NCBI GenBank assembly: GCA_016786725.1
Contig: JAEUVU010000007.1
Span: forward strand, 434,001-498,000
DNA: 64,000 nt
Direction: 5' to 3'
DNA from: Ferruginibacter sp.
GTDB taxonomy: Bacteria; Bacteroidota; Bacteroidia; Chitinophagales; Chitinophagaceae
The notes beneath the pieces were generated by a model. It had not been told where the DNA came from, made no database searches, and saw nothing but the letters and a program-made list of their open reading frames with translations. This document shows positions 2,669 through 34,874 of this stretch, in pieces. A program made the position numbers and the translations under genes. Positions within the stretch are counted from its first letter, which is position 1; each line of letters starts with the position of its first letter.

Positions 2669-4624
2669 ATGCCAAACGCAACCTACATAGCACTTATTCC
2701 TTTACTGCCTCTGGCAGGGTTCTTAATGCTTGGAATATTCGGAAGAAAATATTTTAAAAATACTTCTGGGGTTATTGGTGCTGCATTATTGCTGATATCA
2801 ACTGTACTGGCACTATATACTGCTTACGGTTATTTCTTTGAGTACGGCAAAGTAGATGGTGTTTATCAGAAACTGGTTCCACTTAAATATACCTGGTTAC
2901 AATTCTCCGAAAATGTTTCTATAGACATGGGCATTATCATTGATCCTGTTTCTGTGATGATGCTGGTGGTGGTAACTTTTGTTTCGCTGATGGTGCATAT
3001 TTACAGCCTGGGATATATGAAAGGCGATGAACGTTTCCCAACCTATTATGCTTTCCTTGGCTTGTTTACTTTTTCGATGCTGGGCCTGGTTGTATCTTCC
3101 AATATTTTTCAGATATACATTTTCTGGGAACTGGTAGGCGTTTCTTCCTTCTTATTGATAGGATACTATTATGATAAACCAAGCGCTGTTGCGGCATGCA
3201 AAAAAGCATTTATTGTAACACGCTTTGCCGATGTTGGATTTTTGATCGGTATTTTAATTCTTGCTTTCCATTCAGGTACCCTTGATTTTAATACATTGAT
3301 CACAACATTAACTTCGCCTGAAACGGAAGGGTATAAAAGTGCGGCTGCTGCATCTTTCATGGGTGTGTCTGCACTCACCTGGGGTTTGGCACTGGTATTT
3401 GTTGGCGGTGCCGGTAAAAGTGCGATGTTCCCCTTACATATCTGGCTGCCTGATGCCATGGAAGGCCCCACACCGGTTTCCGCATTGATACATGCTGCAA
3501 CAATGGTGGTCGCTGGTGTATTTTTAGTGGCAAGATTATTTCCTGTCTTCGCCATTTCCTCTCCCAATGCATTAACAATGGTTGGTTATGTGGGAGCGAT
3601 CTCTGCATTGATAGCAGCAATTATTGCCTGCACACAAACAGATATTAAAAGAGTGCTGGCCTATTCCACCATGAGCCAGATCGGCTATATGATGTTTGCC
3701 CTGGGCGTTTCAAAGTATGGTGGTGAAGAAGGATTGGGATACACTGCATCTATGTTCCATCTGTTTACACATGCCATGTTCAAAGCATTATTGTTCTTAG
3801 GCGCAGGCGCTGTGATACATTATATACACAGCAATGAAATGAAAGACATGGGCGGACTGAGAAAATATCTGCCAGTCACTCACATTACTTTCTTAATTGC
3901 ATGCCTGGCTATTGCCGGTGTGCCACCCTTTGCAGGCTTCTTCAGCAAAGAAGAGATATTGCTGGCTGCTTATGAACACAATACAGCCATTTACTGGATC
4001 GCATTGATAACTTCGGGTCTTACTGCCTTTTATATGTTCCGTTTGTATTTTAATATTTTCTGGAATGCTCCCTCTCCTTTGGAGAGGGCGGGGGGTGAGG
4101 TGCATGGAGAGCATCATGGCGAAGGCGGTTTTGTAATGATGATGCCATTGGTATTGCTGGCAGTTGGTGCAGCCGGTGCAGGCTTTATTCCATTTGGACA
4201 TTTTATCAGCTCAGATGGAAAACAATTGAATACTGAATTTCATTTGCAGTTTTCCATTGCACCTGTTGCACTGGGATTGGCAGGTATTTTTATCGCCATG
4301 TGGATGTATAAAAAGCAAAATAACAGGCCAGATAAAATTGCTGCTTCCTTAAGCAGCTTGTACAAAGCGGCTTATCATAAGTTCTATATTGATGAGATCT
4401 ATACTTTCATCACACAAAAAATAATTTTCAATCTGATAGGAAGACCGGCTGCATGGTTTGATAAGAATGTAGTAGATGGGATGATCAATGCAACCGGCAA
4501 TGGCACTAAAGATATTTCGGAATCTATAAAAGGGTTACAATCGGGCAAGGTACAATCCTATGCTATTTATTTTCTGGCAGGGGTTATAGGTTTGGCTTTA
4601 TTGTTTATCTACTGGTGGACATAG
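2669..4624 (+). CDS. nuoL: NADH-quinone oxidoreductase subunit L (antiporter-like, with repeat-derived segment)
   Basis: Distal proton-pumping subunit of complex I, 651 aa. It has the antiporter-family core (FPLHIWLPDAMEGPTPVSA, and conserved lysine/histidine residues in following helices) and a long C-terminal region with the lateral helix. The frame extends up to a GTG at 2660, but that codon lies in the terminal repeat of the upstream element. ATG 2669 (MPNATYIALIPLLPLAG) gives a normal NuoL N-terminus. Residues NAPSPLERAGGEV, in a hydrophilic loop, are encoded by a copy of the same repeat family (4070-4100). The frame stays open and the flanking helices look intact, so the protein is probably functional. 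Confidence 0.96.
   Translation: MPNATYIALIPLLPLAGFLMLGIFGRKYFKNTSGVIGAALLLISTVLALYTAYGYFFEYGKVDGVYQKLVPLKYTWLQFSENVSIDMGIIIDPVSVMMLVVVTFVSLMVHIYSLGYMKGDERFPTYYAFLGLFTFSMLGLVVSSNIFQIYIFWELVGVSSFLLIGYYYDKPSAVAACKKAFIVTRFADVGFLIGILILAFHSGTLDFNTLITTLTSPETEGYKSAAAASFMGVSALTWGLALVFVGGAGKSAMFPLHIWLPDAMEGPTPVSALIHAATMVVAGVFLVARLFPVFAISSPNALTMVGYVGAISALIAAIIACTQTDIKRVLAYSTMSQIGYMMFALGVSKYGGEEGLGYTASMFHLFTHAMFKALLFLGAGAVIHYIHSNEMKDMGGLRKYLPVTHITFLIACLAIAGVPPFAGFFSKEEILLAAYEHNTAIYWIALITSGLTAFYMFRLYFNIFWNAPSPLERAGGEVHGEHHGEGGFVMMMPLVLLAVGAAGAGFIPFGHFISSDGKQLNTEFHLQFSIAPVALGLAGIFIAMWMYKKQNNRPDKIAASLSSLYKAAYHKFYIDEIYTFITQKIIFNLIGRPAAWFDKNVVDGMINATGNGTKDISESIKGLQSGKVQSYAIYFLAGVIGLALLFIYWWT
4070..4100. repeat. 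REP-type palindrome embedded in the nuoL reading frame
   Basis: This 31-bp segment begins CCCTCTCCTTTGGAGAGGG and ends GGGGTGAGG. It matches the reverse complement of 2516-2546 at 28 of 31 positions. It is translated as roughly APSPLERAGGE, in a loop that follows the helix FYMFRLYFNIFW and precedes a histidine-rich stretch and the next helix. A non-coding repeat family therefore contributes protein sequence here. Confidence 0.85.
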
Positions 4625-4644
4625 TTAACAGATTAAGAGAAAAG

Positions 4645-6126
4645 ATGAATTTATCGTTATTGATATTGATACCATTACTCACTGCGGCAGCCGTGTTGCT
4701 CATGCGCAATGCTGCACAGGTAAGATGGGTATCGCTGCTGGGAGCTTCGGCTCAACTGGTGCTTGCATTTGTGTTGCTTTTTCTTTTTAACCAGCAAAGA
4801 GCTGCCGGCAACACGGCACAAATGTTATTTGAAACGCAGTACAATTGGTTCCCGTCATGGAATATCAGTTTTCATTTGGGTGTTGATGGTATTTCGGTAG
4901 CCATGATCTTGCTGACCGCTTTTGTTGTAATTGCCGGCGTACTCGTTTCCTGGAACGTTACCAAAATGACCAAAGAGTTTTACTTCCTGCTCATCTTATT
5001 AAGCATGGGAGCTTACGGTTTCTTTATTTCACTCGACCTGTTTATACTGTTCTTCTTCTTAGAAATTGCAGTGATACCAAAATATTTACTCATCGGTATT
5101 TGGGGCAGCGGCAAAAAAGAGTATGCGGCCAATAAACTGGCGCTGATGTTAATGGGGGGTTCTGCATTGGTGCTGGTGGGTTTACTGGGAATTTATTTTT
5201 CCGGTAAAGAACACAGTTTTGATCTGATGAAACTGGCAGCGCTAAACATTCCGCTGCAAATACAAATGATCTGCTTCCCTTTGTTGTTTGCAGGCTTTGG
5301 CGTGTTCACAGCATTGTTCCCATTGCATACGTGGGTGCCCGATGGTCACTCATCTGCGCCCACTGCAGGTTCTATGTTCCTTGCGGGGATATCCATGAAA
5401 CTGGGTGGCTATGGTTGTTTGCGTGTGGCAACCTTCCTCATGCCCGAAGGAGCAAAAGAATATGCAAACATTATTATCATACTTTCTGTCATAGCGATTT
5501 TATACGGCGCCTTTGCTACCATGATGCAGAAAGATCTGAAATACATCAACGCTTATTCATCTGTAAGTCATTGCGGTTTTGTGTTGCTGGGTATTGGTAT
5601 GCTCACCAAAACATCCATGACCGGTGCGGTAATGCAAATGGTTTCGCATGGTTTGATGACGGCCCTTTTCTTTGCGGTGATAGGCATGATATACGAACGT
5701 ACCCATACACGGCAGGTGAGTGAAATGGGAGGGCTGTTAAAGCGGATGCCTTTTATCGGTACCGTGTTGTTTATTGTCGGTCTGTGTTCGCTGGGCTTGC
5801 CGGGGTTGAGTGGTTTTGTTGCAGAAATGACCGTGTTCATGGGTTCCTGGCAGCATCCTGATACATTCAGAAGAATTGCAACCATACTTGCCTGTCTTTC
5901 CATCGTGGTAACGGCAGTATATATTTTAAGGGCCATTACAAAAACTGCGATGGGCCCGTTGAAAGAAGGATTTGAATTGTTGACTGATGCAACCTGGAAT
6001 GAAAAACTGGCGGCATTGATACTGATAGCAGGCATTATAGCGATCGGCATTGCGCCTTTCTGGCTGAACGATTTGATTGCTCCCGGCGCAGAAGTAATTA
6101 TGCAAAAATTGGCAATACCAAAATAG
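4645..6126 (+). CDS. nuoM: NADH-quinone oxidoreductase subunit M (antiporter-like)
   Basis: Proton-pumping membrane subunit of complex I, 493 aa from ATG 4645. The frame is open to a GTG at 4615 that overlaps the nuoL stop. MNLSLLILIPLLTAAAVLLM is the usual NuoM start, so 4645 is preferred. Visible features are about 14 hydrophobic helices, the conserved glutamate in FFLEIAVIPKYLLIGIWG, and the antiporter signature FPLHTWVPDGHSSAPTAGS. nuoN follows after eight bases, so the two are probably translated from one message. Confidence 0.97.
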   Translation: MNLSLLILIPLLTAAAVLLMRNAAQVRWVSLLGASAQLVLAFVLLFLFNQQRAAGNTAQMLFETQYNWFPSWNISFHLGVDGISVAMILLTAFVVIAGVLVSWNVTKMTKEFYFLLILLSMGAYGFFISLDLFILFFFLEIAVIPKYLLIGIWGSGKKEYAANKLALMLMGGSALVLVGLLGIYFSGKEHSFDLMKLAALNIPLQIQMICFPLLFAGFGVFTALFPLHTWVPDGHSSAPTAGSMFLAGISMKLGGYGCLRVATFLMPEGAKEYANIIIILSVIAILYGAFATMMQKDLKYINAYSSVSHCGFVLLGIGMLTKTSMTGAVMQMVSHGLMTALFFAVIGMIYERTHTRQVSEMGGLLKRMPFIGTVLFIVGLCSLGLPGLSGFVAEMTVFMGSWQHPDTFRRIATILACLSIVVTAVYILRAITKTAMGPLKEGFELLTDATWNEKLAALILIAGIIAIGIAPFWLNDLIAPGAEVIMQKLAIPK

Positions 6127-30879: not shown

Positions 30880-32397
30880 ATGAAAGATTGTACCCAACAT
30901 CTTGCCCACATTAAAAGAGTATTGTTTCTATCGGTATTCTTGTTGATTAATTCATTTTGCCATGCACAATCCTATTCCGGTTATCATACATCGCCTTATG
31001 CTGGTGTATATTCTATTTTGAACAACCCAGCCGATATTTTGAATCACCGGGTAAGGGCTGATATTAACCTTGTTGGCGTATCAGCAGGTGTTGGCAATAA
31101 TATATTCACTTTTAAATACAACAAAATAAACAGTGATGATGAGGATGATGAAGCACTAACGTTTCCCAGCCCAATTAAAAGAAATGGTAAATTAAACCTG
31201 AACACAGATGTGTTTGGTCCTTCGGTGCTTGTAAGATTATCAGATAAACATGCCATAGCGCTTACAACCCGTGCAAGGGTAATGGCAAACCTCCGTGGCG
31301 CTGATGAAAACCTGCTGAACACCCTTTTCCAGGATAGTATAGGCAGGGAACTTATTGGCAGTACCCTCAATATACACGACATGAATATTAATGCCCACGC
31401 CTGGAAGGAGATCGCTCTCAGTTATAGCAGGCAGATCGGCATATCTGATTATGGTGTGTGGAAGTTTGGCGCTTCGGTAAAATATCTTGGCGGCGTTGCA
31501 GCTTTTTCAATGCATAGTATCAACTTGTCTTTTGCGCACGATTCTATTTTTGATATCAGTACCGGAAGCATGAAAGATGCAGTGCTGAGCCCGAAAGGAA
31601 GTATTGCAATAGGGTACACCAAAAATCTTGATTCACTTTCTGATGGTTTCAGCGATTATATGAGTTTTAAGAACTGGGGTATTGGAGCTGATATCGGCAT
31701 CAGCTATGAATACCGGGATGAGATGCAGGTGTATGGAACTGCCTACAGCGAAAAAACAGCCAATTATATCTGGAAAGCAGGTGTATCTATTACCGATATC
31801 GGCTCAATCCGTTATCGAAAACCACAAACAAAAGGTATAACCACAAAATTAAACGGCAATAACTACACAGTTGATCAACTTGAGCCTCCATCAGATTCAA
31901 GTGATTTTTACCAGATGTCGAACTATTATAAAAAGCTGTTTAATTCGAACACCGAATCGCCGGATATAACCATGCAACTTCCCACAACGCTTCATCTTTC
32001 TTACGACCGGTATTTTAATAAATGGCTTGGTGTGCAGGGGCAATTGAACATTCCTTTGATGTTTTCGCCGGTGGCATATCAAACAGGAAATTACAATCCT
32101 GCCTCGCTTGTAATTACGCCGAGAGCAGAAATTCCGCAGGCAGGTTTGTATGTGCCGTTAACTTATGCAGCAGGTTCAGGTTTCCAGATGGGAGCGGCCT
32201 TGCGCCTTGGGCCTTTAACTGTTGGTTCTGCATCGCTTATCAATACCAGGATATTAAGCAGAACAAAAGCTGCTGATGTTTATTTTATTTTACGGGTACC
32301 ATTATTTGGTTATCGTGAATATAAAGACTCAGAACCTAAATTTCAATGGCCAAAACTTTCACGTAAAGAACGCCATAAACTTAATTGCCCTAAGTAA
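30880..32397 (+). CDS. Outer-membrane beta-barrel protein, DUF5723-like
   Basis: 505 aa. A cleavable signal ends near NSFCHAQ. The mature N-terminus (GYHTSPYAGVYSILNNPADI followed by RADINLVGVSAGVGNN) resembles the DUF5723 family of Bacteroidota beta-barrel proteins. The rest consists of alternating amphipathic strands, with the C-terminus rich in tyrosine and phenylalanine (YFILRVPLFGYREY). Its role is unknown; family members are predicted outer-membrane proteins. It is alone on its strand and converges on the unknown lipoprotein pair, with a palindromic insertion between the two 3' ends. The family name is from memory of the pattern and should be checked by a profile search. Confidence 0.7.
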   Translation: MKDCTQHLAHIKRVLFLSVFLLINSFCHAQSYSGYHTSPYAGVYSILNNPADILNHRVRADINLVGVSAGVGNNIFTFKYNKINSDDEDDEALTFPSPIKRNGKLNLNTDVFGPSVLVRLSDKHAIALTTRARVMANLRGADENLLNTLFQDSIGRELIGSTLNIHDMNINAHAWKEIALSYSRQIGISDYGVWKFGASVKYLGGVAAFSMHSINLSFAHDSIFDISTGSMKDAVLSPKGSIAIGYTKNLDSLSDGFSDYMSFKNWGIGADIGISYEYRDEMQVYGTAYSEKTANYIWKAGVSITDIGSIRYRKPQTKGITTKLNGNNYTVDQLEPPSDSSDFYQMSNYYKKLFNSNTESPDITMQLPTTLHLSYDRYFNKWLGVQGQLNIPLMFSPVAYQTGNYNPASLVITPRAEIPQAGLYVPLTYAAGSGFQMGAALRLGPLTVGSASLINTRILSRTKAADVYFILRVPLFGYREYKDSEPKFQWPKLSRKERHKLNCPK

Positions 32398-32405
32398 ACT
32401 ATTTA

Positions 32406-32522
32406 TTCTTTACAAAATCTCTTTGATAGCTGCAATTCCTTTACAGACTTCCGAAGTTTTAAAAACTTCGGAAGTCTTAAATATCACTTCTTCTTTACAA
32501 AATCTCTTAAATAGCTGCAACT
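32406..32522. repeat. Perfect 33-bp palindrome flanked by a 32-bp direct repeat
   Basis: Bases 32445-32460 (AGACTTCCGAAGTTTT) pair perfectly with 32462-32477 around one central A. The palindrome lies between direct repeats 32406-32437 and 32491-32522, which agree at 29 of 32 positions. The right copy encodes the C-terminus of the 796-aa lipoprotein (minus strand, ...SYLRDFVKKK). The left copy reads ...CSYQRDFVKNK followed by a stop. This looks like insertion of a palindrome that duplicated the gene end. Confidence 0.8.
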
Positions 32523-34874
32523 GTTAAATGCTTCTTTATAAAAAGCAGTGCTGCTGTATTCTTTTATGAACTGAGGAAAGTATTTGTTGTTAGTAAATTT
32601 AGGCCAGTAAGCTTTCTGGGCCTCGTCGTATTTATCCCAATTGGTTGAGTATTCACTGTATTGTGGCTGATGCACCTGTTTTTGGGCACATTTAGCCATC
32701 ATGAATAAGCAACGGGCTTTAAAATTTTTATCGGCGCTTGCATTCATGGCTTTCTCAAAATAATCAAGCGCTTTAGTAACACCGTAATATTCTTTTTGAA
32801 AACCGGTGGCATCTTTTGGAATATAATAACCGTCGCTGCCACTGCGGTAATATTGCACCAGCTCCCAGGTGTGGCCATAATAACTCATGTTGTACATACC
32901 CAATGCAAGTTTGTAATAACTCTGTGCTGCGGTGGCTGGTTGTTTTGCTGCCTGCTCCAGTTTCTGCATTTCCTGTGCAAAAGCAAGTTTGGTTGTGCTG
33001 AATTTCTTTTCGGCAGGTAATTGCTCTTCACGGTCGTACAGCAGGTCAACAAACGGGTTTTTATTGATTGTTTTTTTATCAGCCGATCTTTTAAACCAAT
33101 CAATGGCTTTGGCATAATCATATTCACGCAGGTAAGAAGTGCCGGCAAAATCAACTACTTCTTTTTTAGTAACAGAGTTGTGGGTTAAAAGATAGTTTTC
33201 AAATTTAGATGGTTTTTTACTGTCAACCAGGGCAAACAGCATTTCAACATCGGCACTCATCAGGTTATTCCTCAAAAACTCAATACCGTTTATCGAACCA
33301 TAGTAATCCTGTTTGCTTTTCATCATCCAGTCGGCATTACCAATGCACAGGGTTTCTTTGGCAATATCGCCTTGCTGGTGGTACCGCTTTGCCAGCACTT
33401 CGCTTAGCACATTGCGGTAAATGCTGCGCCATTGCTGTATCTGCCAGTAGTCCATTGTAACGGCTTTTTCCGACTTTGCTTTTTCTTCCAGCCATTGCAG
33501 CGAGGGCAGCAACTGCTCTTCAAAAGCCGCATCAATTTTTTCTTTTTCATTTATTGTAACCAGCAGGTTTGTTAAGGCCCACTGGTCTTTTACTTTTTGT
33601 GTAAGCTGCATTTTATCAGCAGCAGATAAATATTTTTTAGCTTTTGTATAATCACGGGTCATATAGGCAGCGTATGCAGCAGCGGTTTCAAACAGGCCGG
33701 CATTGGTAACGGGTTTTGTTTGGGCAGCATCGTGTAAGAACGAAGCCAGGGCTGTTACTTCTTTTTCACTTTCTCTCATTATGCTGTCACGGCTTTCATC
33801 TTCCCAGTTAAAATAAAAAGATTTGCCGCCGGGTACTTTTTGCATGGCTGGGGTAAGGTATTTTTCTTCCAGCTTGTTTATTTCACGTACAACCAGCACT
33901 TCCAGTTCTTCGCCCGAGGGATTTAGTTTTAAGATATCCTTCATCTCGGCCAGGTTATCTCCGCTGCTGCTTAATGCAAACAACGATAGCATGGCTGCTT
34001 TTTCTTTATCATTTTTACACAAGGCCAGGTAATTCTTTTTATCGGTCTTTGAATCAACACTCCAGATAAAACCATTAAAGTTAGAAATGCGTTTGGCGGT
34101 GCTTGCTGTAAATGCTTTACTGAAAAGATAAGCCGCTTCTTTGCCCTGTCCACTGCGGAACAAAGCCCCGGCTTTTAAAGCAAGGCACAGCGGCTGTAAC
34201 ACGCTGCTGCTGGTTGTTTTAGCGGCATACCCATCATACCAGTTAATAACATCGGTGTACCTGCCGCTGTAATGTGCCAGGCGTAAAAACTGGTAAGCAT
34301 ATTTTTGTTTGAAAAGATCTTTTTTGGCAGCGCCGTACAATTGCTGCCCGCTTTTGATGAGTTTGGCCATTTTCAAACTGTCACGGTTGATGCTGTTCCA
34401 GTCATCATCGCCACCCAAAACATACGGTTCAACTTGTTTTGCATACATAATATAGCCCAGCGCTTCCAGGTCTTTGCTCTGTATAAAATAACCCGTCATG
34501 CTATTTTGCTTTACCGAATCGGGTATTTTTAAAGGTTGATTTTTTTCAAGATGGTAATAGAGGTTGTTCAGGTCTTTCCAGGCAAACTTGTTCACTAATT
34601 TTTTTGCATCTGCTTTTTTTACAGTTGAGCCACAGTAAGCAGCCCATTCATCGGCCAATACATCGCTTAACTGAGTTGGCTCTGTAGGGTCGTAAAAAGA
34701 CTGGTAGCCTATATAATAGAAAGGCTTGTATCCTTTTGCTTCGGGCAATTGCTGATGAAAGAAAGAGGTATAATAATCATACGGGTCTGCTTCGGGGCCG
34801 CAACCAATAATGTTTTGAGGAAAAGAAACGATGGCGGCGCTAACGCAGGCTGTTATAAATGCTTTCCAGTTCAT
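32484..34874 (-). CDS. Large lipoprotein with helical repeats, unknown
   Basis: 796 aa. The N-terminal signal ends in a lipobox-like FPQNIIGC, followed by GPEADPYDYYTSFF. Much of the chain is predicted helical with TPR-like hairpins (for example YLREYDYAKAIDWFKRSA, ALDYFEKAMNASADKNFKAR). I cannot assign a family or an activity. Its start lies 35 bases inside the upstream gene, so the pair is translationally coupled and the products may work together at the cell envelope. The C-terminus appears to have been rebuilt by a palindrome insertion with duplication of its last codons. Confidence 0.8.
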   Translation of the reverse strand: MNWKAFITACVSAAIVSFPQNIIGCGPEADPYDYYTSFFHQQLPEAKGYKPFYYIGYQSFYDPTEPTQLSDVLADEWAAYCGSTVKKADAKKLVNKFAWKDLNNLYYHLEKNQPLKIPDSVKQNSMTGYFIQSKDLEALGYIMYAKQVEPYVLGGDDDWNSINRDSLKMAKLIKSGQQLYGAAKKDLFKQKYAYQFLRLAHYSGRYTDVINWYDGYAAKTTSSSVLQPLCLALKAGALFRSGQGKEAAYLFSKAFTASTAKRISNFNGFIWSVDSKTDKKNYLALCKNDKEKAAMLSLFALSSSGDNLAEMKDILKLNPSGEELEVLVVREINKLEEKYLTPAMQKVPGGKSFYFNWEDESRDSIMRESEKEVTALASFLHDAAQTKPVTNAGLFETAAAYAAYMTRDYTKAKKYLSAADKMQLTQKVKDQWALTNLLVTINEKEKIDAAFEEQLLPSLQWLEEKAKSEKAVTMDYWQIQQWRSIYRNVLSEVLAKRYHQQGDIAKETLCIGNADWMMKSKQDYYGSINGIEFLRNNLMSADVEMLFALVDSKKPSKFENYLLTHNSVTKKEVVDFAGTSYLREYDYAKAIDWFKRSADKKTINKNPFVDLLYDREEQLPAEKKFSTTKLAFAQEMQKLEQAAKQPATAAQSYYKLALGMYNMSYYGHTWELVQYYRSGSDGYYIPKDATGFQKEYYGVTKALDYFEKAMNASADKNFKARCLFMMAKCAQKQVHQPQYSEYSTNWDKYDEAQKAYWPKFTNNKYFPQFIKEYSSTAFYKEAFNSCSYLRDFVKKK

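Follow-up and report, generated by a model that had tools for sequence, protein, structure and literature searches.

REP and REPIN elements with their RAYT transposases are known as short inverted doublets that form hairpins and lie dispersed between genes, near gene ends and around Y1 transposase genes (PMC3116915, PMC8266576). Among them, the "double foot" REPs of TnpA_REP subclass 2.4 are known from Bacteroidetes, with palindromes described around and inside the Y1 gene (PMC6006769).

The window analyzed here, a stretch of 64,000 nucleotides from Ferruginibacter sp., carries a palindrome at the 3' end of a gene for a 796-aa protein. An earlier note on this DNA had proposed that insertion of the palindrome duplicated 32 bp of that gene end. 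The repeat is indeed of a mobile type and the gene end is duplicated around it, but we do not read the duplicate as the insertion's target duplication. Instead, we think it probable that a replication or recombination event duplicated the gene end and that a REPIN-class palindrome lies at or in the joint, the duplicate not being its footprint.

A gene end present twice in the window

As the earlier note had described, a perfect 16+1+16 palindrome, AGACTTCCGAAGTTTT-A-AAAACTTCGGAAGTCT, lies between direct repeats, at 32445-32477. The repeats, given there as 32 bp with 29/32 matches, are real and extend further: they cover 33 bp at 32403-32435 and 32488-32520 with 30/33 positions identical, and the two copies, termed A and B, align through their stop codons with 30/36 identical. 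This 33-bp pair is the strongest short-range direct repeat of the whole 64-kb window, and it is not a product of chance, since a flanking repeat with such a score is absent from all 279 control gene ends. The features of the locus are as follows.

30880-32397, plus strand: gene for a DUF5723 protein, convergent, ending next to copy B
32399-32435, minus strand: copy B, a diverged, untranslated second gene end reading CSYQRDFVKNK, with stop TAG at 32399-32401
32439-32444, minus strand: GTAAAG directly after the palindrome, which the palindrome's last T completes to the TGTAAAG found in both A and B
32445-32477, no strand: palindrome with arms that are each near-palindromic (AGACTTC-C-GAAGTTT), a dispersed REP/REPIN-type element
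32478-32483, minus strand: TATTTA directly before the palindrome, which with the palindrome's AGA repeats TATTTAAGA of copy A
32484-32520, minus strand: copy A, functional 3' terminus of the gene for the 796-aa protein, reading CSYLRDFVKKK with stop TGA, a C-terminus shared by relatives
32484-34874, minus strand: gene for the 796-aa protein, with no Pfam family above the cut-off and with orthologues in many genomes of the genus

The repeat ending in VKKK and a stop, previously recognized as the C-terminus of the 796-aa protein, is thus copy A, and it represents the conserved functional end because the genes of relatives terminate at the same position in SCSYLRDFVKKK and a stop, or a close variant. 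The earlier idea that copy B is the older end is supported in part: it does read VKNK and a stop, and it ends in AAATA, common to many relatives, where copy A has AAGTG. Nevertheless, it has Gln at a position that is Leu in every relative read by eye, and we therefore consider it to have decayed as non-coding DNA. Besides, the flanks of the palindrome repeat two short gene-end motifs with their order kept, an arrangement that simulation gave at 0.0017 and 0.005 for the motifs singly and in 0 of 20,000 runs for both, the motifs having been noticed before testing. The flanks have the look of a third, incomplete gene-end copy that would have lost about 9 nt to the palindrome.

Copies A and B differ at 6/36 positions, while copy A differs from the gene ends of other species at 5-11/36 (25-31/36 identical). 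Since the divergence between the copies is of between-species size, either the duplication is ancient or one of the copies derives from a related lineage. The 796-aa gene of the nearest relative has 79% DNA identity, and the genus genomes searched include none so closely related that it would reveal how the locus looked before. At this gene end, relatives have neither palindrome nor second copy, except for one genome (G060) that has a second, foreign copy and no palindrome. There, the second gene end lies 664 bp downstream and is 91% identical to that of another genome (G022) and 79% to its own. At this locus (L115, 3549-5089), the 796-aa orthologue is followed by a RelB-like antitoxin-type gene, the second, foreign-looking end and a 265-aa ORF without a Pfam match. 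A further genome, in which the full gene was not found, holds a degraded lone 3'-end fragment of it (L116, G045:C94, about 4610-4730).

Such a history might be proposed for the window as well, with DNA of a related species recombining at the conserved gene end, so that copy B (or A) is foreign and a second end is left behind. The G060 locus, with its antitoxin-type gene between the ends, would be a precedent without any palindrome, and both the between-species divergence of A and B and the widespread AAATA of copy B agree with this origin. We hold it to be rather unlikely, however, as the window has only 36 nt, too short to place, and no foreign gene between the copies, and as copy B is closest to copy A over its first 33 nt (91%). 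An integrase att site at the gene's 3' end, an idea taken from G060, was rejected because no element lies between the window copies; no att-like repeat was found in other relatives.

The palindrome and RAYT genes of the genus

The palindrome is an inverted doublet of short hairpin-forming units, and as a single strand it gives a stable hairpin (DNA fold of -16.4 kcal/mol, z of -7.6). Its own genome has 8 copies, counted with up to 3 mismatches, and the palindrome is present in 8/93 genomes of the genus (about 9%), that is, this genome and 7 others, whereas a control search with the reversed pattern found no copies. The dispersed copies are extragenic and often follow genes: those of the own genome mostly lie 5-85 nt past a stop codon, often between convergent genes, and across the genus the sites are mostly just 3' of stop codons.

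One genome of the genus (G118) has a cognate RAYT gene with copies of the element at its flanks. This gene, for a 199-aa Y1/IS200-like transposase with a Pfam PF01797 match just above the cut-off, has 5 palindrome copies inside, behind and upstream of it, all within 1.2 kb. One palindrome stands directly behind the gene and another lies within it, in frame; upstream there is a small array of palindrome-plus-spacer units (L117, 2157-3343). Because copies bracket a RAYT-type transposase gene and one sits in frame within it, we assign the palindrome to the REP/REPIN class as a small non-autonomous element, despite its missing GTAG foot, and it would be mobilized in the genus by RAYT (TnpA_REP, Y1/HUH) transposases, which as a rule produce no target duplication. 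Against this assignment stand the absence of the classical REP foot GT[AG]G, with no constant GTAG or GTGG at the palindrome's edge, and the lack of an intact cognate RAYT beside the palindromes of its own genome, where the only candidate, about 0.7 kb away from a copy, is a Y1-transposase-like gene with a frameshift (L038, G000:C2, 562-1079). RAYT genes or their remnants elsewhere in the genus (L174, L175, L179, L180, L154) adjoin palindromes of 33-38 bp with differing sequences, which suggests that the genus holds several REPIN families.

Several other identities were considered and rejected. The palindrome is not an intrinsic terminator, having no GC-rich stem followed by a T run, and against Rfam it gave sub-threshold matches only, none over the gathering score of a known structured RNA. 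Nor do its arms appear to be the TIRs of a transposon with lost cargo, as the sole split copy of the own genome (L076, G000:C25, 5262-9124) results from insertion of an IS1595-family transposon (376-aa transposase, PF12762), not a parent element. That transposon has an apparent 8-bp target duplication, TTTGAAAA, at the palindrome's centre, and it may target such palindromes.

Flanks of the other palindrome copies

The earlier note had also advised searching other palindrome copies for flanking duplications. Copies were found, and we compared 120 nt to the left and right of 44 distinct ones, followed by about 8 more with longer flanks; among the approximately 50 inspected, REP arrays left aside, long repeats flank the palindrome only in the window and at one further locus (G002:C195). 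At the latter, the palindrome lies behind sucD, and the flanking repeat, gapped and with many mismatches, is about 107 bp long and spans the last codons, the 3' untranslated region and the terminator. None of the 11 sucD relatives checked has a second copy; in G067 one related terminator is present and the palindrome is absent. Set against the 279 control gene ends, the association of gene-end duplications with palindromes (Fisher p of about 0.014-0.02, resting on two loci) is suggestive.

Flanking repeats at G052 (L174) and G118 were set aside, being extensions of the element or REP arrays and not duplicated gene ends. Separately, a REP palindrome of another family beside a RAYT gene lies between diverged direct repeats of about 90 nt near the 3' end of leuS (L154, G006:C52, 2167-2386), possibly a third case of the palindrome-between-repeats layout. 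The flanking similarity at L154 and L149 was left out of the count, since it may represent RAYT-upstream repeats.

These flanks bear directly on the original proposal, namely that the palindrome was inserted through staggered cuts and fill-in that split one gene end into two 32-bp copies. The A-palindrome-B layout fits such a long target duplication, and sucD in G002 has the same layout. Yet no flanking repeat accompanies about 40 further palindrome copies, the repeat length varies (33 versus about 107 bp), and copies A and B are strongly diverged, as between species. In addition, IS200/IS605-type transposases are not known to make target duplications, which also argues against the proposal; we regard it as quite improbable. 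With two cases in about 45 non-array copies, of unequal lengths (33 and about 107 bp), the palindrome does not behave as a transposon with a constant-length target-site duplication, and, judged from its flanks, such duplication is not its habit.

Origin of the second gene end and comparison with known systems

The same earlier note had named replication-based copying or recombination as an alternative, and we judge this the better half of its suggestion. Under the duplication that we favor, a replication error (slippage or template-switch) or a one-sided recombination would have duplicated the 3' end of the 796-aa gene, with the REPIN sitting at or inside the new joint between the gene-end copies. 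The order of the two events may be either: the REPIN could have inserted into a gene-end copy that was already redundant, where it took the place of about 9 nt between TATTTA and GTAAAG, or it could have helped provoke the duplication.

A more elaborate sequence places the palindrome first, its hairpin causing slippage that duplicated a unit of gene end plus palindrome, after which the second palindrome was deleted between TGTAAAG repeats. The deletion would need TGTAAAG in two places, and it is indeed present both within copy B and just behind the palindrome; REP-plus-spacer arrays exist in G118. However, two steps are needed at one site, and our searches found no intermediate in which both the palindrome and the gene end are doubled, so we give this sequence of events only a modest chance.

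Returning to a duplication by replication or recombination, a bolder extension is that RAYT-mobilized REPINs actively drive small duplications at the 3' ends of neighboring genes, leaving spare, evolvable ends; lagging-strand stalling or template switching during ssDNA transposition might offer a route. We consider this extension unlikely. If such duplications are indeed seeded by REPINs, these elements would supply new gene ends and terminators; if not, the present loci caution against calling such repeats target-site duplications. In either case, our analysis records, for this Bacteroidota genus, a REPIN family with one member inserted in frame in a RAYT gene, and two gene ends independent of each other, that of the 796-aa gene and that of sucD, at which a REPIN-type element lies between diverged 3'-end duplicates. 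The element class itself is known (REP/REPIN), and the association with gene ends is modestly interesting.

Compared with described REPINs (PMC3116915, PMC8266576), the palindrome differs in that its arms almost touch (1-nt centre), its copies are few (8), it has no GTAG foot, and no intact cognate RAYT was seen beside the copies of its own genome. Compared with subclass 2.4 (PMC6006769), it lacks the GT[AG]G / C[TC]AC feet, and the G118 protein has YIHANP as its Y motif where the subclass has YIxNNP. With local gene-end duplications by slippage or one-sided recombination, the locus shares an intact gene and an extra degenerate end downstream; the G060 example has no palindrome, while the window and sucD of G002 have a REPIN at the joint.
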